Shown here: positions 4,851 through 16,769 of the stretch, in pieces
Numbering within the stretch: the first letter of the stretch is position 1
How the letters are laid out: every line of letters starts with the position of its first letter
From: a virus
Reading direction: 5' to 3' (one strand)
Length of the DNA stretch: 64,000 nucleotides
Virus record (IMG/VR): IMGVR_UViG_3300035070_002626
Span: 124,001 to 188,000 of that record
Program-made: the position numbers and the translations under genes
The notes under the pieces: generated by a model
What the model was told of the DNA's origin: nothing
The model's database searches: none
The model's input: only the letters and a program-made list of their open reading frames with translations

Positions 4851-5374
4851 TCTATAACTCCAGTTATTTGCAAACTGTATCTGTGCGTTTTACCAACGTT
4901 AGCAGCTAGGTGTTCAGTGTCATTTTGCCATATAAAATAATCACCAGCGTGCCATTTTGTTTGTGGTTCACCATCTATTTCAAACACGTGTCCACTTTCC
5001 CAGTCTTTCATAAAGAAGATTGCTCTATGTATAGTATCAGCATCATTGATATTGTGATACTTGATAAAACGTGCATAAGTGTCACTGTGTGTAGGGAGAC
5101 AGCAACCAGGTCCCATGCGGTATACACTCCAAGAAAAGTGTTTCCATGGTAATACAGTTTGAATTTTATCCATCCATTTGGGTGCAGGATTACGCATGTC
5201 ATACATGTCGCCTGTAAACTTGGTTTGTGTATAACCTAACTCTCTCCACTCAGCCAAGCTTACAGGATCATTGAAAGGCTCGTTGCTATAAGGCAAGTCT
5301 TCAAATGCATTTTGCCAGACTGGTGCTGTGCTGCCCTGCCACCACTTTTTACTAGGCTTGTCTTGTGTTTCCAT
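4847..5374 (-). CDS. 2-oxoglutarate/Fe(II)-dependent oxygenase-like protein
   Basis: The 175-residue protein fits the double-stranded beta-helix oxygenase fold. His96 and Asp98 (PTHSDT) plus His155 (DTEHLA) form the likely iron triad. Arg165 in THRYSLQ is placed to bind 2-oxoglutarate. The pattern resembles aspartyl/asparaginyl hydroxylase-like enzymes common in marine phages. The gene overlaps the dehydrogenase upstream and the amidinotransferase downstream, suggesting the three act together. The substrate is unknown; it could be a small molecule or a protein side chain. Confidence 0.75.
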   Translation of the reverse strand: METQDKPSKKWWQGSTAPVWQNAFEDLPYSNEPFNDPVSLAEWRELGYTQTKFTGDMYDMRNPAPKWMDKIQTVLPWKHFSWSVYRMGPGCCLPTHSDTYARFIKYHNINDADTIHRAIFFMKDWESGHVFEIDGEPQTKWHAGDYFIWQNDTEHLAANVGKTHRYSLQITGVIE

Positions 5375-6584
5375 AATGTACTACTTCTATATCTTTCATT
5401 GTTTTAGGCAAGCGTCTCCATGGATCAACCACTGTGCTTCCACTAGGAAGCGGGCAATAGAAACTGTCGTCGCGAACATCACCGGTATAGCCGTATGTAA
5501 TGAATCTATTGTGTGCCATAAGCACTACACTTGCTTCATCAATACTTTCAACTACGTTGGTTTGATCATCAGCAAGTGGGTCTAAGTAAACCACACTATG
5601 CCCGAGTTCTTCTACATACCATCCAATTAATGTGCTGTAACTGCCAATACAAAACGGAACATCGGGTTTATAAGCTTTACCGTGAATTACAATTGGGCGA
5701 CCTTTACTGTGTTCAACTAAAAAATGTGCTAGATTTTTTGCTTGTACTTCCCTGGCACCCATGATTGTGTTAAACATATCATACCCAACATCATACTCTT
5801 CGGCCAGCCAACGCAGTGCAATATTATCACGTGGATGACATGCACCTGCATCCCCCATGCCTGCTGTCATGTATTTAGGACCCATGATACGCATTGTACT
5901 TTGTGCCAGTGCATCAGTAACAACATCAACATCAATGTTGCCAATTTTCATTGCAAAGTCTTGAATCATGTTAACCAAGCCAACTTTTGCACTAATAAAT
6001 GTGTTGTAGAAGATTTTAATTGCTTCGCACTCGTCCCATGTGCCTGTAACATATCTTGGATTATTCAGCATAAGTGGGCGATACAAATTAATAAGATCTC
6101 TCATCTCACTTGGGTCACCTGTTTCGGTGCCAATCATAACCATTTCTGGATTAGCAAAATCCCACTTAACACTACCCATTGCAATCAGATATGGATTGTA
6201 CAAGAATTGGTGGTTGCTGTCCAGCAAACTATAAAACTCACGGCGTGTTGTGCCCGGTAGTACTGTCGAAATAAGAACAACACGTTTTGGTTCTGTAGCA
6301 TGCTCGTTTACTAAACGGATAGCATCTTTAACGGCATCGTGGCCAAAGTCTTTTGGCTCCATGTGTGCACTGGGCGTACTACCATCGTACCCTTCTGCAT
6401 GTGGAGTTTGTACAGCAATAAAAATCCAATCGCTGTTGGTAATCATTTCTTCAGGGGTATTACAAACTTTTACCCTGTCGCTTGTGCGTGGGTAAATATC
6501 ATAACCACACACGTTATACTTTTCTGCCATTACTTCCGCACAATCGAGCCCAAGTTTGCCGAGCCCAATAAATCCAATATTCAT
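5352..6584 (-). CDS. UDP-glucose/GDP-mannose dehydrogenase family protein
   Basis: The 410-residue protein starts with a Rossmann motif (GFIGLGKLG). It contains ISTVLPGTT at 105-113, the substrate helix EAIKIFYNTFISAKVGLVNMI at about 187-207 (an invariant Glu-Lys-Asn set), and the catalytic cysteine Cys249 in GACHPRDN. These enzymes oxidise UDP-hexoses (or GDP-mannose) twice with NAD to the uronate. The length is close to the family norm. It is the first gene of a minus-strand operon that continues into oxygenase and amidinotransferase genes and diverges by only 19 bp from the gene at 6604. The likely role is supplying a modified sugar nucleotide for glycan decoration. Confidence 0.85.
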   Translation of the reverse strand: MNIGFIGLGKLGLDCAEVMAEKYNVCGYDIYPRTSDRVKVCNTPEEMITNSDWIFIAVQTPHAEGYDGSTPSAHMEPKDFGHDAVKDAIRLVNEHATEPKRVVLISTVLPGTTRREFYSLLDSNHQFLYNPYLIAMGSVKWDFANPEMVMIGTETGDPSEMRDLINLYRPLMLNNPRYVTGTWDECEAIKIFYNTFISAKVGLVNMIQDFAMKIGNIDVDVVTDALAQSTMRIMGPKYMTAGMGDAGACHPRDNIALRWLAEEYDVGYDMFNTIMGAREVQAKNLAHFLVEHSKGRPIVIHGKAYKPDVPFCIGSYSTLIGWYVEELGHSVVYLDPLADDQTNVVESIDEASVVLMAHNRFITYGYTGDVRDDSFYCPLPSGSTVVDPWRRLPKTMKDIEVVHYGNTRQA

Positions 6585-8740: not shown

Positions 8741-8752
8741 TTTATTAACGTA

Positions 8753-8759
8753 CTAAATA
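8753..8759 (+). promoter_or_regulatory. Late promoter motif CTAAATA
   Basis: Plus-strand ACTAAATAC lies 20 nt before the ATG at 8780, with an AAAGGGGC ribosome site between. It serves the tandem small membrane-protein genes. Confidence 0.45.
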
Positions 8760-8779
8760 CTACCGTAAAGGGGCACACA

Positions 8780-9061
8780 ATGGATAGCATGTTTAAATTA
8801 ATACAAGATGTAGGCTTTCCGATTGCAGCGGCGGGCGCATCTGGGTACTTGGTTTTCCTTACAATTAAATTCATTCTCGACGGAGTTACTGGTAGTGTAC
8901 AAACATTAGCAAACATTATTAAGCAATTAGACAACCGTGTGCAAACAATGAACAACGATCTTGTCAAGATCGACGCACTGATGAGTCATACATTAGGAGT
9001 AAGACCTAATGTTGATAGAATTGCTGCCAACGAAGGTAAAGAAGATGCACGAAGGGATTAA
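8780..9061 (+). CDS. Holin-like membrane/coiled-coil protein 1
   Basis: A 93-residue protein: a short amphipathic start, one hydrophobic helix (about 12-34, GFPIAAAGASGYLVFLTIKF), then a helical polar region of coiled-coil type (TLANIIKQLDNRVQTMNNDL). This layout resembles BhlA/UviB-type holin-like proteins. It is a paralogue in design of the next gene, which starts 2 nt after its stop. A good ribosome site (AAAGGGGC) supports the start. A role in lysis or envelope disturbance is inferred. Confidence 0.6.
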   Translation: MDSMFKLIQDVGFPIAAAGASGYLVFLTIKFILDGVTGSVQTLANIIKQLDNRVQTMNNDLVKIDALMSHTLGVRPNVDRIAANEGKEDARRD

Positions 9062-9063
9062 TA

Positions 9064-9381
9064 ATGAACAATTTTGCTGATTGGGTCAACCAATATGGTT
9101 TTCCAATTGTTGCCGCAGTCGGGCTAGGCTATTTTATCTATTATATATGGGTGTGGGCAACCACAAAAGTTAAACCTGTAATAAGTGCAGCTATGGGAGA
9201 TTTGATTGCATTAGTTGATAGAATTAGAATGTTAGACAACGATATGATACGATTAAACAGCAAGTTGTCAATGGTGCTAGAACATCAAAGTAAAATAGAC
9301 AAAAAGCGTAGAGAAGAACTAGAAGAAATAGTAGCAAGATACCAGAGTAAAAGCGAATCATTTAACAGCACTGGCAAATAA
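9064..9381 (+). CDS. Holin-like membrane/coiled-coil protein 2
   Basis: A 105-residue protein with the same plan as its upstream neighbour: one hydrophobic helix (residues 10-32, QYGFPIVAAVGLGYFIYYIW), then a long charged helix (DRIRMLDNDMIRLNSKLSMV...KKRREELEEI). The shared GFPI-A-GYF core and DRxxxLDNDMxRL pattern suggest tandem duplication. GAAGGGA precedes the ATG. The two may form a hetero-oligomeric pore. Confidence 0.6.
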   Translation: MNNFADWVNQYGFPIVAAVGLGYFIYYIWVWATTKVKPVISAAMGDLIALVDRIRMLDNDMIRLNSKLSMVLEHQSKIDKKRREELEEIVARYQSKSESFNSTGK

Positions 9382-9680: not shown

Positions 9681-11720
9681 TTACTTTGTCTGTGCTATGA
9701 AAACGCCATTCCAGTCTGAAGGAAGGTCTTGTGTTTTCATATACTCGCATCTTTCAATCCACATGTCGTAATATTTTTCCATTTGATGATCAAAGTGGTC
9801 ATGTAACAAGCGACATTTATCAATAGCATCATCGAATCTCTGCGCACGATAATCTTCGTGCATTTGTATGTGTTTCTTCTGCGCATTACGCCATGCCGGG
9901 GCAGTATTGTCGAGAACTGTGTAGATAGTTAATCCAACTGATTTACCTTTTACTTGTAAATCATCTACTTTAAGATAGAAGAAGTCATCCTTTGTTGCTG
10001 CGTATGTTGTTTCGCCTACAAGTAACAGGCATCCGTATTCTTTACACTTGCTTTCTACTCTTGCTGCGGTGCTCACAGCGTCTCCAAGGACATCATATGA
10101 ATGACGTTTAGTACTTCCCATCTCACCAAGGTATCCCAACCCCGTGTTGATGCCAGCGCCCATACCAACAGCAGGACGGCCATCAGGTATAATAACTTCT
10201 TCATTAAACTTCTCCACTGCACGAAGCATGTCTAAGCCACACTGTACGGCGGTCTTAGCATGTTTAGCGTCATCTATAGGCGCATTATGTATGTGCATAC
10301 TAGCATCGCCGATGTATTTAATTATCATTCCGTCCGCATCAAGCACAGGTTGTGTAATGCTGTCCATGTAGCCGTTCATAATAGTTGTCAGACCTTTTAC
10401 ATCATCACCAAAACTTTCACCCAATGGAGTAAAGCCACGCAAGTCACTAAACACAATAGAGACTTCTTTCTTTTGCCCGTCTTTAATTAGACTTGGATTT
10501 TCTTGTAGCAGTTTAACCACTGTAGGCGATGCGTATCCAGCAAACTGTTTCTTGATTGCTTGTTTCTCTAAAAACTCTTGTACAAACTTAATGCCATATA
10601 CTTGCAATGCTATTATAATAAACACTATAACAGGTGCTGTAACGTCTAAAAGAAACTTATCAGTTGCGTATGCGTATATGCTGTAAGGTATAACTCCGAC
10701 TATCATTGTAACAGTTGTAGCAAGCCCAACCCACATCCAACGACTTAATAATATAAGCAATAATCCGCCTACTACTAGTGCAACAAGCTCTGCTGTTGGT
10801 GCCCAATTGGGACGTTGTATGTTTGTACCAGCAAACATAGTGCCTAGTACTGCGGCTTGTGTAGTGCCTGCATACTGCGCTCCCAGTGCCGTGGGAACAG
10901 GGTTAGCAATGCCTGCGGCAGTAACGTCTACAATAACTACTGCACCTCCTAGATCATTAGGTAAGTCTGCAACACTTACATTCTTGCTACGTTGACTCCA
11001 ATCAATCCACACTCTACCCTCGCTGTCTGTAGGAATAACACCAAACTTTGGTATGCGCATTTTTTCTATACCAAACTGATTTAGTTTAATTTGAAAGTTG
11101 GGATCACCTGCAATGACTCGTAATGTCTCGAGCGCCAAGCTTGGATATAATGTGCCGTTTACAACAGCAACAGTTGGCATACGACGAACCACACCATCTA
11201 TCTCTGGTTCAGTGCTTACAATACCTGCACCCACTGAATTGTTTTCAAGTTCTGATATATTAGCAATAATACCACCATATGGCAAGATACGATCTAAGTA
11301 CTGAGGTTGGATAATTGCTGCGCCCGGATTAATTGGTTCGTTTACAGTTTTGTTACTAGGACGGCTAGCAAGTATAACCGGATAGTCTAACATAGTATCA
11401 GCTAGGTATGCATCTCCACCTAGTCTATCCTCTTCAGGCATCATTACATTCCACACAACCAATCCAGCACCTCTGTCGTACAAGTCTACAATAATGTCTG
11501 CGTATATGTCTCGGGGGAAAGGATACTGTCCGTACAGTTCTAGTGCTGCTTCGTCTATCTCTGCAACATAGATATTATTCTCTACTGCTGGTTGATTTAC
11601 AATAAGCTGATCAAAATAATTTAATTTAATACTTTGTATAAAGTTATTAGGTACTGCAAATGCATACACTAATGCAGCCAGTGTAATCAATGCCCACCAA
11701 GGAGATAATAATCGTTTCAT
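9681..11720 (-). CDS. CHASE2-domain class III adenylate cyclase
   Basis: A 679-residue membrane signalling enzyme. An N-terminal helix (about 7-24) is followed by an extracytoplasmic CHASE2 sensor domain (about 30-305). Three helices follow (about 311-328, 331-350 and 358-376), then a cytoplasmic class III cyclase domain (about 415-605). Metal-binding Asp426 (FSDLRGF) and Asp472 (YIGDASM) are present. The ATP-selecting pair Lys468 and Asp543 is intact, pointing to cAMP rather than cGMP. Arg554 (TAARVES) is kept, but the usual transition-state Asn is Ser550 (GDAVSTAAR). The gene overlaps the 115-aa gene and is the last of the curli operon. It may sense envelope change and raise cAMP during infection. 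Activity is uncertain because of Ser550. Confidence 0.9.
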   Translation of the reverse strand: MKRLLSPWWALITLAALVYAFAVPNNFIQSIKLNYFDQLIVNQPAVENNIYVAEIDEAALELYGQYPFPRDIYADIIVDLYDRGAGLVVWNVMMPEEDRLGGDAYLADTMLDYPVILASRPSNKTVNEPINPGAAIIQPQYLDRILPYGGIIANISELENNSVGAGIVSTEPEIDGVVRRMPTVAVVNGTLYPSLALETLRVIAGDPNFQIKLNQFGIEKMRIPKFGVIPTDSEGRVWIDWSQRSKNVSVADLPNDLGGAVVIVDVTAAGIANPVPTALGAQYAGTTQAAVLGTMFAGTNIQRPNWAPTAELVALVVGGLLLILLSRWMWVGLATTVTMIVGVIPYSIYAYATDKFLLDVTAPVIVFIIIALQVYGIKFVQEFLEKQAIKKQFAGYASPTVVKLLQENPSLIKDGQKKEVSIVFSDLRGFTPLGESFGDDVKGLTTIMNGYMDSITQPVLDADGMIIKYIGDASMHIHNAPIDDAKHAKTAVQCGLDMLRAVEKFNEEVIIPDGRPAVGMGAGINTGLGYLGEMGSTKRHSYDVLGDAVSTAARVESKCKEYGCLLLVGETTYAATKDDFFYLKVDDLQVKGKSVGLTIYTVLDNTAPAWRNAQKKHIQMHEDYRAQRFDDAIDKCRLLHDHFDHQMEKYYDMWIERCEYMKTQDLPSDWNGVFIAQTK

Positions 11721-12049
11721 GTTTTCTTTCCCATTAGTTTTGCTCGCATTGCATCTAGCTCTGCATTTCGCTGTTGTTCTTCTACGCTGGTTTGATTGGA
11801 CGAGATTTGTACTCTGGGTTTGGTACGCCTGGTTTGTACTGTACTACTGGATTGTACTTTATTTTTTGTTTGTTGTTGAACCCGCGATGGCGATGAATTT
11901 CCAATTTCTTGTCGAAGTTGTTCAATTCGGTATTTGATGTCTTGGGTTGCACTTCCGTCATACTTTTTACTTGCTGAATTTCTAAGTTGCTGATCAACTA
12001 ATTGGTTGATATTCTTACTAAAGTATTTATTTAGGACCCATTTAATCAT
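11717..12049 (-). CDS. Hypothetical Gln/Ser-rich protein between curlin and cyclase genes
   Basis: The product is 110 residues from the ATG at 12049; a GTG at 12064 would add five. It is soluble, Gln/Ser/Lys-rich and low in complexity, with a predicted helical start (MIKWVLNKYFSKNINQLVDQQL) and a basic end (MRAKLMGKK). No family is recognised. A hairpin at 12061-12083 separates it from the curlin gene, and it overlaps the cyclase start by 4 nt, so it is coupled to the cyclase. Confidence 0.5.
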   Translation of the reverse strand: MIKWVLNKYFSKNINQLVDQQLRNSASKKYDGSATQDIKYRIEQLRQEIGNSSPSRVQQQTKNKVQSSSTVQTRRTKPRVQISSNQTSVEEQQRNAELDAMRAKLMGKKT

Positions 12050-12060
12050 AGTGGTATTTA

Positions 12061-12083
12061 ACACTATTGTGACCTAATAGTGT
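12061..12083 (-). terminator. Hairpin after the curlin gene
   Basis: A perfect 8-bp inverted repeat (ACACTATT / AATAGTGT, 7-nt loop) begins 3 nt after the curlin stop. It is followed by TAAATA rather than a clean T-run, so it may be a weak terminator, an mRNA 3'-end stabiliser or a processing site. Confidence 0.45.
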
Positions 12084-12086
12084 ATT

Positions 12087-13268
12087 TTAGTATTGCGATA
12101 CACTCATGCTGCATCCGCCTGGATTAACACATGTACTTGTTATTGAGTATGACTTTGCTGTACCACTGTATTGTTCTAAACTAAAGTTGTATGCTGGTCC
12201 GTTCACACTAGATAAATTTACAGTTGCACTGTGTCCGCCACTGCCATGTTGTAGTATATCAACCAAGTTACTGTCGCCTGTTAAGTCAAGGTCAAGGCTT
12301 ACAGTGTCACTGTTTCCTAGTTGCGCTGCTTCAACATTGTTATAGTCTCCGTCTACGTCAACATTCATTGTATGAGCACCGTTTTTACGTTGTGACAATT
12401 CTACATCATTATAGTCACCTTCAATGCTTGTGGTCATTTCATGTGATGCCCAACAACAGTTCTCGGCTTGGTCAGTTTGTGCTGAATGGTATGTGTTATT
12501 GTTGCCGGTAATAGTTACATATGCGTCGTGGTCACCGGCTTCTGTTGTATCAGTATAACCATCTAATTGTTTACCTTGCCATACTTTTATATTGTTGTCA
12601 TCACCGATTAATATTAGTCTACTGAAGTTGCTTTCGCCGTTGCCACCTTGATAACTATCCACTGTGTTGTCATTGCCCGTGATTGCTGCTTCTGTTTGTT
12701 CGTATTGTGATCCATTTTGTGTTACTGTGACTGTATTCCTGTCGCCAGTGATGGGTGTATCATTGTAGCCATACACCATATGATTATTACCGTCTTGATC
12801 TACAGTTATAGAGTTGCCATCACCGTCTGCTTTGACGTATGCTAGGTTGTTATCACCGTCTTGTGTAATGGTTGCAGTTTGATCAGTATCACCACCATCT
12901 CCTAGTCCTGCGTAGGCTAAATTAGAGTCGCCAGTTTGTGTAATATCAATTCTGCAGTTGCTACCATAACAATGTGAATACGCTTCGTTATCATCGCCTG
13001 TTTGTGTTGTGTTGTTTATTCCATTATCTGCGCTCATGTACACACCTATTAGATTGATATCTCCTGTTTGAGTGTATGTAGTGCTTGCATTGTTGCCACT
13101 AATAGTCGCTTTGCCATTGGTAGGCCATCCATCACTAACAACATTGTCAGTGCCATCTTGTGTAATAGTTAAGTCAGTGTTGTTGCCAACTTGGTTGATA
13201 TAGATTTCATTTGCATAACAGATTTGGCTAAAAAAACAAGTTATTATTGTTGCAATTATTAATTTCAT
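12087..13268 (-). CDS. csgA: Curlin-repeat amyloid-like secreted protein
   Basis: A 393-residue protein with a signal peptide (cleavage after CYA, about residue 19). A long run of curlin-type repeats follows, with cores such as ITQTGDSNLAY, ITQDGDNNLAY, VDQDGNNHMVY and VTQNGSQ spaced about 20-25 residues apart. The Gln-x-Gly-x-x-Asn pattern is that of CsgA/CsgB subunits, which form cross-beta amyloid outside the cell after export through CsgG. It is 2-3 times longer than E. coli CsgA. It also has cysteines (SHCYGSNC, ENCCWAS, CVNPGGC), which are unusual for curlins and could form disulfides. It is encoded with CsgF, CsgG, FecR and a second curlin-like protein. Confidence 0.85.
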   Translation of the reverse strand: MKLIIATIITCFFSQICYANEIYINQVGNNTDLTITQDGTDNVVSDGWPTNGKATISGNNASTTYTQTGDINLIGVYMSADNGINNTTQTGDDNEAYSHCYGSNCRIDITQTGDSNLAYAGLGDGGDTDQTATITQDGDNNLAYVKADGDGNSITVDQDGNNHMVYGYNDTPITGDRNTVTVTQNGSQYEQTEAAITGNDNTVDSYQGGNGESNFSRLILIGDDNNIKVWQGKQLDGYTDTTEAGDHDAYVTITGNNNTYHSAQTDQAENCCWASHEMTTSIEGDYNDVELSQRKNGAHTMNVDVDGDYNNVEAAQLGNSDTVSLDLDLTGDSNLVDILQHGSGGHSATVNLSSVNGPAYNFSLEQYSGTAKSYSITSTCVNPGGCSMSVSQY

Positions 13269-14395
13269 TATTGCCTCTGATTTATATCTATAGTGTTGTT
13301 ACCAGCACCTAATAGGTAATCATATACCACTTCGTCACCTTGTTGAATATTAATACGATACCCATATTCTTGCGATAACGTCAATCTCAAATAATTATTT
13401 ACATCTACACTGGTTCTTTGTACAACCCAATCATCATTTCCTATTTGTAGCGAGATTCGTGTTGTTTCGTCGTATCCGCCGAGCTGTTGTTCAAAAAACT
13501 GCGAGTTTTGTGTTTTAAGTTCGTCTCTAAACAATGCTGCAAGAGCTAAATTTAATTGATCTATCATGTCGACTAGTAGTTCACCTAAGTAATAGTCCAC
13601 ATTATGATCTAAATCTGTTATCCAAATATCTTTAATGCTTTCTACTAACACATCTTCGTCGAGTTCATCAAACTCTAGTGCATCGATGTCAAGAAACTCA
13701 AACATTTTTCGTGTACGTTTGCGTATTTGATCTTCTTCATCTGCTATAACTGTTCGCTTGCGTAGTATTAACAAGTTGTTGATTTGGTCTTCGTTTACAC
13801 TAATAATTACCGGCTTGCTTGGAAGTTTTCCACTGTGTGAAACTTGTGTTGCTTGAAATGCTTGATTCATTACAACAAAACCTTCGTCTGTTTCTACTTT
13901 GATTTCGCCTGTTACACAATAACCTGCACTATCACAGCTAGGCAATAGAGTAACCATTGAGCCACCAATTTCATCTACAACCATAATAAAGTCTGTACCA
14001 CGCACAGAGATAGTTGCACTTGGTGTGCGCACTCTTACGTTTTGTCTTGAGTTTTTAGCAATTTGTCCACTGGCATAACGAACAGTTCCTAAGGCAGCTC
14101 GCATGTCCAAACTGCCTTTGCCTGTGTTAGGGTCGTATACAAAGTCGTCAATTACTAGTATACTATTGTCAATAACATCTACTCTGGTATCGTCAATAAA
14201 ATCTAAACGCATTTTACCACGTTTGGTTCTGGCAGTATCCATTGATTCCAGCAGAGTGCCTTTTTCGCTGCCGACTACATTGCTCTCACGCACAATTTCG
14301 CCAGACCCATCAAGTTCAGTCACTGTGCCAATACTAGCACTCGTTTGCGAGACTGTAACTAAGAGGCTGATAATTGCAAAAGCGAATATTTTCAT
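13268..14395 (-). CDS. FecR-domain periplasmic protein
   Basis: A 375-residue protein with a signal peptide (cleavage about residue 20, QTSA|SIG). A FecR domain follows at about 35-190: RTKRGKMRLDF, a GSLDMRAALGTVRY strand and VRTPSATISVRGTDF, a hallmark of the family. The C-terminal half is helical and acidic with no known motif. FecR domains sense or bind ligands in the periplasm and occur next to secreted repeat proteins. The gene lies between the two curlin genes, sharing a start/stop overlap with the downstream curlin. Its role in curlin export or adhesion is inferred. Confidence 0.85.
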   Translation of the reverse strand: MKIFAFAIISLLVTVSQTSASIGTVTELDGSGEIVRESNVVGSEKGTLLESMDTARTKRGKMRLDFIDDTRVDVIDNSILVIDDFVYDPNTGKGSLDMRAALGTVRYASGQIAKNSRQNVRVRTPSATISVRGTDFIMVVDEIGGSMVTLLPSCDSAGYCVTGEIKVETDEGFVVMNQAFQATQVSHSGKLPSKPVIISVNEDQINNLLILRKRTVIADEEDQIRKRTRKMFEFLDIDALEFDELDEDVLVESIKDIWITDLDHNVDYYLGELLVDMIDQLNLALAALFRDELKTQNSQFFEQQLGGYDETTRISLQIGNDDWVVQRTSVDVNNYLRLTLSQEYGYRINIQQGDEVVYDYLLGAGNNTIDINQRQ

Positions 14396-14396
14396 A

Positions 14397-15116
14397 TTAA
14401 TCGCTTTGCGTTATATCTACGTCTTGACTGTCGCCGTTAAATGTTGCATCAATTGTGCTACCGTCCACACCACTTTGTGTGATGTTGTACGTGCTGCCGC
14501 CTCCGGTGATGTTCAAATTAACAGTATGCCCATCCAAGCTTGCACCGCCGCTGGTATTGATAGTAATTGCATTGCCTTCGTCGCTAGCAGCACTTGTAGT
14601 TGCCAATGACGATGAATTATCTGCGACTATCGAAATTCTACTGTCAACCCCGTTTACTGTTAAGTTAGTAATATTGTTATCACCGTCCATATCAAAAGTA
14701 ATAATGCCGCCGCTTGCGTCTGCTGATTCACCAATATTAAATGTATATGTGTTATCGTCGCCGTCACCATCAATATCTAATTTTACAGTTTCACAGTTAC
14801 CTGCACCTGCTGTTCCTAAACTAGCACAATTTAGTGTTACATCATTCGAGTCTCCAAAAAAGTCCCAAGTACCTGTGTAATTTGCTCCGTTGATTATAGC
14901 ATCAATGGTGTTAGTGTTACCTGTTTGGGTAATACTAAACGTCATATCGTCGCCGTTGATTGTAAAATTGGTCGCCTGTTGGCCAATTTCGTTGTCAGTG
15001 CCATCTTGTACCAAGTCTAGATCTAAGTTATCCCCAACTTGGGTAATGTAAATATCATTTGCCAGTGAGGTACTGGATATAAACAACAAAGATAATACAT
15101 ATAAAAGTTTTTTCAT
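14397..15116 (-). CDS. Second curlin-like secreted protein
   Basis: A 239-residue protein with a signal peptide ending near SLA|NDIYITQVGDN (residue 19). The motif DIYITQVGDN closely parallels NEIYINQVGNN at the mature start of the larger curlin. Repeats are looser than in the 393-aa protein (ITQTGNTNTID, DMDGDNNITN, ITQSGVDGS). It could be the nucleator (CsgB-like) or a minor subunit. It is Asp/Asn/Gly/Thr-rich and almost without lysine or arginine. It lies directly downstream of csgG with an AGGAG site 10 nt from the ATG. Confidence 0.75.
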   Translation of the reverse strand: MKKLLYVLSLLFISSTSLANDIYITQVGDNLDLDLVQDGTDNEIGQQATNFTINGDDMTFSITQTGNTNTIDAIINGANYTGTWDFFGDSNDVTLNCASLGTAGAGNCETVKLDIDGDGDDNTYTFNIGESADASGGIITFDMDGDNNITNLTVNGVDSRISIVADNSSSLATTSAASDEGNAITINTSGGASLDGHTVNLNITGGGSTYNITQSGVDGSTIDATFNGDSQDVDITQSD

Positions 15117-15151
15117 GTTCTGTTTGCTCCTAAGGCTTTACGCCTTTATTT

Positions 15152-15967
15152 TTATTTTTTAAATTTCCACATATTGCGCTTCTTACCCTCGAAAACCATT
15201 TCAATCACACCTTGCTCTATTGCTGCTCTTACTGCATAGTTAACTGGCTCATTAACACTATAACCAGTTTCGGCTTCTACAAGTTTTGTTCCTAAGTCGA
15301 AAAACTTAAAAATATCTGCACCCGATCTATAGCTTGCAATAGTCTTCTCAGTTGCTATGCTCATTAATACTTTACCAGTGCTAACGCTAACTAAACGCAT
15401 TACAACAGTTACAGTGTCTACTCTGTATTCTGTTTGCACACCGATACCTAAGTATCTTGCTCCTGCGCCTCCTACTGCTGTGTTGCTGTCATACCCAACA
15501 ATTCCCCCTTCAAGTATAAGCCCTGCAAACAACATTGGCTTCAACGGTGTAGGGCCGTTTGGAAGTTCTTTTTCGTACACTTCCCTCGTACTACGAATAA
15601 GTTGACGTTCTTTAATCAAATTATCCATACCTACACGCTCTACCACTTCAAACCAAACGCCATTACCTACATCTTGGAGTGCTTTAATAACCCATACTTC
15701 TGATCCTTGGGTTACTGCGCTCGACAAGTTGGCGATATTATCCGCCGGCTTACGCTGTCCTGTTGCATCTCTGAAACCGTAAACAGCGATTGTAATCTTT
15801 GGTCCATCTATTGCGGGGACCGCCGCAAGCCTATCTTCAATTGGACTAACTTGTACTATAGGAGATGTTTTACTATCTTCTAGAACTTGAAGGCTTTTGT
15901 TAGTTGCGCAGCCTTGTAATATTAGTACACTAAATCCAATTAGTAAAAACGTTTTTATCAGTTTCAT
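15152..15967 (-). CDS. csgG: CsgG curli secretion channel lipoprotein
   Basis: The 271-residue protein has a lipobox LQGC with the acylated cysteine at residue 20. It shows the CsgG fold: ITIAVYGFRDATGQRKP (55-75), a RQLIRSTRE segment, GGIVGYDSNTAVGGAGARYLGIG (the first transmembrane beta-hairpin) and VVMRLVSVSTGKVL. CsgG forms a nonameric outer-membrane pore that exports curlins. The length matches E. coli CsgG (277). The order csgF-csgG with adjoining coordinates is as in bacterial curli loci. This is the clearest evidence that the phage carries a type VIII secretion channel. Confidence 0.95.
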   Translation of the reverse strand: MKLIKTFLLIGFSVLILQGCATNKSLQVLEDSKTSPIVQVSPIEDRLAAVPAIDGPKITIAVYGFRDATGQRKPADNIANLSSAVTQGSEVWVIKALQDVGNGVWFEVVERVGMDNLIKERQLIRSTREVYEKELPNGPTPLKPMLFAGLILEGGIVGYDSNTAVGGAGARYLGIGVQTEYRVDTVTVVMRLVSVSTGKVLMSIATEKTIASYRSGADIFKFFDLGTKLVEAETGYSVNEPVNYAVRAAIEQGVIEMVFEGKKRNMWKFKK

Positions 15968-16425
15968 TAGAAGTTAAACTCCCCGCCGCCGGGTATGCTA
16001 ATTTCTGTAGTTGTACCATCGTCGTCGACAATTGTTAACGTGATAGTTCCTGTTGTTGCGTCTTTAACCCAGGTTATATTTGCTCCTTCAATATCTGCTG
16101 TGCCTGTATTTGCACATGAGTCTCCGCAATTAGCAAACATAGCGTCTACCATTTGCTTACTTAGGTTAGCGTAGATTCTTGATTCCACGTTTCTAAGAAA
16201 CTTGTTTAGTGTTGTATTTTCAAGCTCGCGCTCTAAACGTGATGCCTCTGCCTCTGCCTTCTTTCGCAAGTCTTCACTGCGATTATGTTGTAACTGTTCT
16301 ACACTTAATACATGCGTAGAATATCCGTTTCCAAAATGAAACGCTGGAGATTTAAACCCCCAAACAAGATCAGCATTTGCTGACCCTGCAATTAACAGTA
16401 ATAAAACAGTGTATAAATTTTTCAT
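15967..16425 (-). CDS. csgF: CsgF curli assembly factor
   Basis: The 152-residue protein has a signal peptide (1-18) and a mature N-terminus DLVWGFKSPAFHFGNGY. This matches the CsgF segment that plugs the CsgG channel (aromatic-Asn-Pro-Phe-Gly pattern). A helix follows (LRKKAEAEASRLERELENTTLNKFL), then a C-terminal beta region (GTADIEGANITWVKDATTGTITLTIVD). CsgF couples the pore to nucleation outside the cell. ATG at 16425 is preferred to GTG at 16431 because GAGG lies 6 nt upstream. It is the first gene after a perfect late promoter. Confidence 0.9.
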   Translation of the reverse strand: MKNLYTVLLLLIAGSANADLVWGFKSPAFHFGNGYSTHVLSVEQLQHNRSEDLRKKAEAEASRLERELENTTLNKFLRNVESRIYANLSKQMVDAMFANCGDSCANTGTADIEGANITWVKDATTGTITLTIVDDDGTTTEISIPGGGEFNF

Positions 16426-16442
16426 GGTCACCCTCTTATATG

Positions 16443-16450
16443 TATTTATA
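16443..16450 (-). promoter_or_regulatory. T4 late promoter TATAAATA driving the curli operon
   Basis: A perfect TATAAATA, predicting a transcript that begins about 12 nt before the csgF ATG with the GAGGG ribosome site at its very 5' end. The six genes downstream to 9681 lie on this strand with small gaps. Confidence 0.75.
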
Positions 16451-16528
16451 GGACCATTTAAAATCTTTAACTGTGTTACTAATTTATTTATTATGCCTAG
16501 TGTAAATATTTTTACACCTATATAATAA

Positions 16529-16536
16529 AATAAATA
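16529..16536 (+). promoter_or_regulatory. Late promoter motif AATAAATA at the Fis-like gene
   Basis: AATAAATA ends 5 nt before the ATG at 16542. With T4 geometry (motif from -13 to -6) the ATG would be +1, predicting a leaderless message. Confidence 0.5.
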
Positions 16537-16541
16537 TTATT

Positions 16542-16769
16542 ATGACCGAGCAAGACGTATTTTTTAACACATTTGATGAGATGTGGACCGAGAAGGAAAT
16601 ACAACATGTTTATGCAGAAAATCTCAACGAACAGTTGGAAACTCTTGAACTAAATTGTATTGAAACTGCACTGCAAGCACACAACGGTAATCGCACAAAA
16701 GCGGCCCAGTTGTTAAACATAGGCCGCACTTGTCTGCTTGCTAAAATGAAAAAATATAATCTAGTCTAA
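16542..16769 (+). CDS. Fis-type helix-turn-helix regulator
   Basis: A 75-residue protein whose C-terminal half (42-73) matches the Fis/NtrC C-terminal DNA-binding domain: ETALQAHNGNRTKAAQLLNIGRTCLLAKMKKYNL. That comprises helix, GNRTKAA turn helix, LLNIGR and recognition helix. The N-terminus is acidic and probably dimerising. It diverges from the curli operon with about 110 bp between, so control of that promoter or of late genes is plausible. There is no Shine-Dalgarno. It converges on the phosphoesterase gene with a 9-nt overlap. Confidence 0.8.
   Translation: MTEQDVFFNTFDEMWTEKEIQHVYAENLNEQLETLELNCIETALQAHNGNRTKAAQLLNIGRTCLLAKMKKYNLV

Follow-up and report, generated by a model that had tools for sequence, protein, structure and literature searches.

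Phage-borne curli modules have been described from pelagiphages of two families, in which csgF and csgG are accompanied by a curlin gene, a FecR gene, a second curlin gene and an adenylate cyclase gene (Wittmers et al. 2022, PMC9599517). Podoviruses are among the carriers, and expression of the pelagiphage module was detected in ocean metatranscriptomes (PMC9599517). 'Sibling capture' had been proposed by Zaragoza-Solas et al. 2020 (PMC7029224), and lysis timing, aggregation and exclusion have already been put forward as possible roles (PMC7029224, PMC9004378, PMC9599517). On the cellular side, biofilm formation by Burkholderia contaminans requires an operon that combines FecR with a CHASE2 kinase (PMC5192318).

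Here, a locus of this kind was analysed in a window of 64,000 nucleotides (124001-188000) from a marine jumbo phage, whose virus record comprises 299,910 bases. The initial annotation had regarded the full gene set as new; this can no longer be maintained, as the same set is found in HTVC008M and Melnitz and was described in 2022 (PMC9599517). As far as we could find, what is new is the presence of the curli module in a PA5oct/Atu_ph07-like lineage, as well as two elements for which no earlier description was found, namely a pair of small membrane proteins as module component and a dedicated regulator together with its operator. The features of the locus, in window positions, are the following:

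8752..8760, plus strand: ACTAAATAC, late-promoter-like element of the TM pair, 28 bases upstream of the start
8780..9061, plus strand: TM1, 93 aa, single N-terminal transmembrane segment and charged helix (phrog_18771)
9064..9381, plus strand: TM2, 105 aa, TM1 paralogue, one transmembrane segment and charged helix (phrog_18771; weak holin phrog_4898, 0.005)
9681..11720, minus strand: CHASE2 class III nucleotide cyclase, 679 aa (Pfam; active-site residues)
11717..12049, minus strand: small gene, 110 aa from ATG, no Pfam family, close relatives only
12087..13268, minus strand: second curlin-repeat protein, 393 aa, signal peptide (Curlin_rpt 2.5e-25)
13268..14395, minus strand: secreted FecR-domain protein, 375 aa, signal peptide, without anti-sigma domain (Pfam; AlphaFold)
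14397..15116, minus strand: first curlin-like protein, 239 aa, signal peptide (family-level Curlin_rpt; all-beta model)
15152..15967, minus strand: CsgG, outer-membrane curli pore lipoprotein, 271 aa (Pfam 1e-49; structure alignment)
15967..16425, minus strand: CsgF, 152 aa from ATG, signal peptide (Pfam 1.6e-12)
16443..16450, minus strand: TATAAATA, T4-type late promoter element of csgF (sense-bias scan)
16484..16492, minus strand: AATAAATAA, second late-promoter-like element, adjoining the operator
16500..16517, no strand: GTGTAAATATTTTTACAC, palindromic operator between csgF and the HTH_8 gene, beside the late promoters
16529..16536, plus strand: AATAAATA, late-promoter-like element of the HTH gene
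16542..16769, plus strand: HTH_8 regulator of the Fis type, 75 aa, present once in the genome (Pfam 9.4e-14)

Transcription on the minus strand thus runs from csgF over csgG, the curlin-like gene, the FecR-domain gene, the curlin-repeat gene and the small gene to the CHASE2 cyclase gene, with the HTH_8 gene diverging. All genes named in the initial annotation were recovered on the strands given there, by Pfam, homology or structure (the small gene excepted), while the extent proposed for the locus, 9681-16769, proved too narrow, as the TM pair at 8780-9381 also belongs to it. A single late transcript had been assumed as well. Successive genes from csgF to the cyclase are spaced by -1, 35, 1, -1, 37 and -4 bases, and this operon-like arrangement agrees with the assumption, as does the late-type promoter; that there is only one transcript is less certain in view of GTTAAATAC, located directly before the small gene. 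A short perfect hairpin at window positions 15132-15146, between csgG and the first curlin gene, is possibly a processing or attenuation point. A terminator scan gave nothing clearly above chance.

The gene order csgF-csgG-curlin-FecR-curlin-cyclase is identical in HTVC008M and four Melnitz phages, and modules of this type have a wide distribution in the ocean. Scanning IMG/VR with a FecR profile yielded at least 534 relatives, and in the 80 loci examined, the search of related phage contigs suggested by the initial annotation gave the same order as the rule, with the cyclase inverted in a few loci and the curli genes missing from hardly any. Since the module is conserved as a unit, it is probably also selected as one. 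The small 110-aa gene, for which Pfam gave no family match, was found solely in the close relatives L018, L084 and L085 and was therefore ruled out as a common part of the module. Five cellular MAG contigs likewise carry the phage curli module (L086, L087, L088, L089 and L091, with L087 from Rhodobacteraceae Water_Bin34), and these are probably virus contigs mis-binned with cells.

The description of the genome as pelagimyophage-like did not stand up, as its terminase is nearest to PA5oct/Atu_ph07 jumbo phages: it is 52% identical to that of PA5oct/Paride-type Pseudomonas jumbo phages and near Phosso and Atu_ph07, all of them at the top of 2,554 matching records. An origin from the Kyanoviridae pelagimyophages was rejected because the terminase is not closest to HTVC008M or Melnitz. 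UvsX, gp32-like, clamp-loader and sheath families point to a T4-related phage, and a DNA-level search of 24 kb of the window against phage records returned no match. As carriers are found in the Kyanoviridae (HTVC008M, Melnitz), among podoviruses and in the lineage of the window, the module has probably been transferred between phage lineages.

Regarding the curli proteins themselves, CsgF (E 1.6e-12) and CsgG (E 1e-49) are both recognized by Pfam, and CsgG carries a lipobox (LQGC) and was aligned over its full length to E. coli CsgG structures. Signal peptides are visible in CsgF, both curlins and the FecR-domain protein. The presence of two curlins with signal peptides could be confirmed, for the second one directly by Pfam (Curlin_rpt E 2.5e-25, four stretches) and for the first one at family level. 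Taken alone, the latter gives a non-significant Pfam match (0.2), and 31 of the 54 members of its family match Curlin_rpt (best 6e-10). Its AlphaFold model is all beta (pLDDT 81.5), and a fold search of this model against the PDB gave nothing reliable. For the gate protein CsgE, no PF10627 match was obtained in the 299,910-base record, itself possibly incomplete; CsgE is likewise missing in other phage curli modules (PMC9599517). All phage proteins form one clade in a CsgG tree as opposed to five alphaproteobacterial CsgG sequences. Structure alignment places Ala and Leu of the window CsgG at the positions of Tyr and Phe in E. coli CsgG, which we take to be the pore constriction residues, and with Ala and Leu at the constriction the phage pore may be wider.

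The FecR-domain protein (Pfam 2.6e-7) begins with a signal peptide and has no further transmembrane segment, and its AlphaFold model resembles the periplasmic domains of FecR/PupR (4m0n, 6ovk; probability 1.00). A cytoplasmic anti-sigma domain is absent, and no sigma factor gene is present among the module genes. In the cyclase, Pfam identified CHASE2 (3.9e-30) and a class III cyclase domain (1.3e-18). The active-site residues D426, K468, D472, D543 and R554 are present, with Ser550 where cellular relatives have Asn. As this catalytic Asn is replaced by Ser in 43 of 58 phage cyclases, that of the window included, cyclase activity has to be regarded as uncertain. Behind a common CHASE2 domain, the catalytic domain occurs in two versions, YDVLGDAVSTAAR and YSVIGDAVNLAAR (window 9681-11720; L003, L029 and L074 among others). 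A cAMP receptor encoded by the phage itself was also considered and rejected, as no cNMP-binding domain was found in the phage record.

Cellular relatives of FecR were followed in about 75 loci on genome contigs. A CHASE2-type cyclase is located within 9 kb of FecR in 18 of them, often at less than 500 bases and in some cases at only tens of bases, and no csgF or csgG adjoins FecR in these loci. CsgF was found in none of the 20 FecR-bearing genomes checked, most of which possess the FecR-cyclase pair, and five alphaproteobacterial curli loci contained neither FecR nor cyclase nor TM pair. These neighbourhoods mark FecR and CHASE2 cyclase as a cellular signalling pair in its own right that is not tied to curli, which weakens the view of FecR as an 'iron regulator'. 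Since FecR-cyclase pairs and curli operons occur apart in cells, the phage module seems to have been put together from two cellular systems and not copied from a single operon. Separate occurrence of the genes in relatives, which by the initial annotation would have refuted its proposal, is hence seen for these cellular genes, while in phages the unit is kept.

The TM pair lies outside the interval of the initial annotation, on the opposite strand and convergent with the cyclase gene, and consists of paralogues of 93 and 105 codons. TM1, with the conserved C-terminus RIAANEGKxDARRD, is the best-conserved gene: identity to Melnitz reaches 75.6%, whereas cyclase, CsgG and second curlin come to 53%, 47% and 33%, respectively. 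Other phages carry the pair either directly before csgF (31 complete-set loci) or, like the window, past the cyclase. A TM1-anchored scan yielded 76 new loci, 68 of them with curli-module genes, and the remaining 8 lie on contigs that stop no more than about 1.4 kb downstream of TM1. Moreover, the pair is present in 6 of 50,697 phage records, exactly the module carriers, and hardly any of the complete phage curli loci seen is without it. Directly before csgF, Wittmers et al. 2022 reported a 'histidine kinase' gene, in some cases two (PMC9599517). Judging by position, these may be the TM pair, which gives no match to a kinase family or domain and is too short for a kinase. A search with TM1 of 372 alphaproteobacterial genomes, run without a positive control, gave no match.

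A late-type promoter had been noted ahead of csgF, and TATAAATA is indeed located at 16443-16450 on the minus strand. Rarity of TATAAATA in itself was rejected as an argument, as the 8-mer occurs 5 times in the window with 5.9 occurrences expected by chance. NATAAATA, in contrast, is found upstream of phage genes in sense orientation in 23 of 180 cases versus 4 in antisense orientation and, because of this bias, can be taken to act as a real T4-type late-promoter signal in the phage. A csgF leader resembling GAGCGTGAGGGCGTTCGCAACGGAG just before the start is common to L009, L010, L011, L016, L019 and L047, all without an HTH gene, and looks like a hairpin leader RNA.

The diverging Fis-type regulator was corroborated by an HTH_8 match (E 9.4e-14; 16542-16769, plus strand). 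Its putative operator GTGTAAATATTTTTACAC is a single site in 299,910 bases, with none in a reversed control, and chance would give 0.04 sites per window if up to 2 mismatches are allowed. The operator was found within about 90 bases of the HTH gene start in 15 of the 17 HTH-bearing loci among the 80 FecR-anchored ones. One further match occurred elsewhere in these 80 loci, and there were 0 in the 889,510 bases of the 63 loci without an HTH gene. An HTH-anchored scan placed the operator upstream for 43 of 55 distinct proteins versus 0.07% in shuffles, and in 42 cases TAAATA follows at a spacing of 0 (14) or 6-9 bases (28). The half-site varies with the recognition helix, GTGTAAA going with GRT/GRV and GTGTTAA with KRT, or, at spacing 0, CTGTAAA with IKRET and CGTAAA with SREN; L005/L335 is an exception, combining a KRET helix with GTGTAAA. 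As the pattern was composed once these loci had been viewed, and as their sequences are related, the fit is somewhat circular. We infer that the HTH_8 protein binds the palindrome. The regulator was found in no phage record of the collection searched, and the text of Wittmers et al. 2022 makes no mention of HTH or Fis (PMC9599517).

HTH-anchored loci without curli genes number 19 (18 plus L284, whose sole 'cyclase' match is a short false one), and 12 of these 19 share the flank of the window with its ClpS-like and small heat-shock-like genes. Where enough sequence is available, the curli-less loci carry a divergent gene for an unrelated secreted protein, followed by genes for a second, larger secreted protein and for a coiled-coil protein with a TM segment. 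This alternative cassette, divergent from the HTH gene, is seen in L261, L263, L288, L296, L300, L306, L307, L312, L318 and L323; its first protein has a signal peptide, 300-430 aa, an Asp/Thr/Ser-rich N-terminus and a hydrophobic C-terminus. Pfam gave nothing informative for the alternative secreted proteins. Regulator and late promoter appear to serve either curli or the other secreted cassette, and alternative secreted proteins in the same slot fit a surface or envelope role. It is a plausible idea, if somewhat short of probable, that marine jumbo phages keep a late 'infected-cell surface' slot for one of two interchangeable cassettes, curli-FecR-cyclase or secreted proteins with a TM coiled-coil protein, under the control of a Fis-type regulator and of an operator that precedes a T4-type late promoter by 0 or 6-9 bases. 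The TM pair would be obligatory in the curli version and possibly the inner-membrane part of a trans-envelope machine. Such a cassette swap in one regulated slot suggests surface remodelling of infected cells as a regular late task of these phages. Near the slot in the curli-less jumbo phage contig L300, positions 4996-5676 encode a ferredoxin-dependent bilin reductase (E 2.7e-16), and a haem-oxygenase-like gene was recognized there by eye.

The sequences show directly which genes are present, that they are conserved as a unit, that the locus has late-promoter elements, and that it has an operator which goes with the HTH_8 gene. As for function, we lean, with a confidence just under even, towards a late envelope cassette of a T4-related jumbo phage, in which curlins are exported to the surface of the infected cell, FecR-CHASE2 reads the envelope or curlin state and an HTH_8 switch sets the level. 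The core would be a curli-type export system (CsgG pore, CsgF) for two curlin-like proteins, complemented by a FecR-CHASE2 cyclase sensor pair of cellular type and the phage-specific TM pair. Curlins would exit by Sec and then CsgG/F, with amyloid being built on the infected cell. Periplasmic FecR would read the envelope state or unexported curlin and signal to CHASE2, and the cyclase would set cAMP for a receptor that is placed in the host because the phage yielded no cNMP-binding protein of its own. By binding the palindrome beside the late promoters, the HTH_8 protein would tune both divergent genes. The surface amyloid might lead to superinfection exclusion or to the holding of neighbouring hosts. 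Several observations count against this reading: no clumping was seen in Melnitz-infected cells (PMC9004378), CsgE is absent, the cyclase Asn is changed to Ser, and the TM pair has no role in the model.

The main rival to this surface cassette is lysis timing, with CsgG pore and TM pair forming a holin-like gated permeability system which triggers or tunes lysis, and curlins gating or plugging the pore. Its appeal lies in the TM pair, which is nearly obligate, short and built of one transmembrane segment and a charged helix, with weak similarity to the holin family phrog_4898 (0.003-0.005), in the predicted late expression, and in the change from Tyr/Phe to Ala/Leu at the CsgG constriction, which may widen the pore; a lysis role of CsgG was proposed by Buchholz et al. 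2022 (PMC9004378). Nevertheless, the holin similarity is marginal, and CsgF, two curlins, FecR and the cyclase are not needed for lysis, so that we consider this reading unlikely, if still to be reckoned with. Uptake of nutrients or cofactors for the infected cell through the pore, with FecR as iron sensor, has been suggested before (PMC7029224, PMC9599517), but leaves the conserved curlins unexplained, and FecR, which carries a signal peptide but lacks an anti-sigma domain, has no TonB partner in the set; we regard it as improbable. Equally improbable is that the FecR-CHASE2-cyclase is the point of the module, raising cAMP to reprogramme the host with the curli genes as cargo: FecR-cyclase pairs do stand alone in cells, but in the phages it is the curli genes that are kept at nearly every locus, while the cyclase is inverted in a few loci and altered in its active site in most. 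Returning to the envelope cassette, the TM pair and the regulator with its clear operator offer handles for testing, and the TM pair is also carried by HTVC008M and Melnitz, which are culturable.

Compared with known systems, the phage FecR shares its periplasmic FecR-domain fold with FecR/PupR anti-sigma regulators, unlike which it has no cytoplasmic anti-sigma domain and no sigma factor in the set. CsgG, CsgF and curlin repeats are common to bacterial csg operons, the alphaproteobacterial ones also sharing the order csgF-csgG-curlins, whereas the phage module lacks a CsgE match, includes FecR, cyclase and TM pair, and has a CsgG in a clade of its own. The secreted FecR-domain protein beside a CHASE2 sensor resembles bacterial FecR-CHASE2 pairs such as Burkholderia BiofilmReg (PMC5192318); in contrast to the latter, the phage version has no LysM domain, uses a cyclase in place of a histidine kinase and is joined to a curli operon. 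Closest is the module of Wittmers et al. 2022 and of HTVC008M and Melnitz, with the same genes in the same order, no CsgE and, in HTVC008M and Melnitz, the TM pair. The window differs from the Wittmers module by belonging to a jumbo PA5oct/Atu_ph07-like lineage, by its divergent HTH_8 gene with operator, by the extra small gene and by a TM pair that is located at the cyclase end on the other strand.
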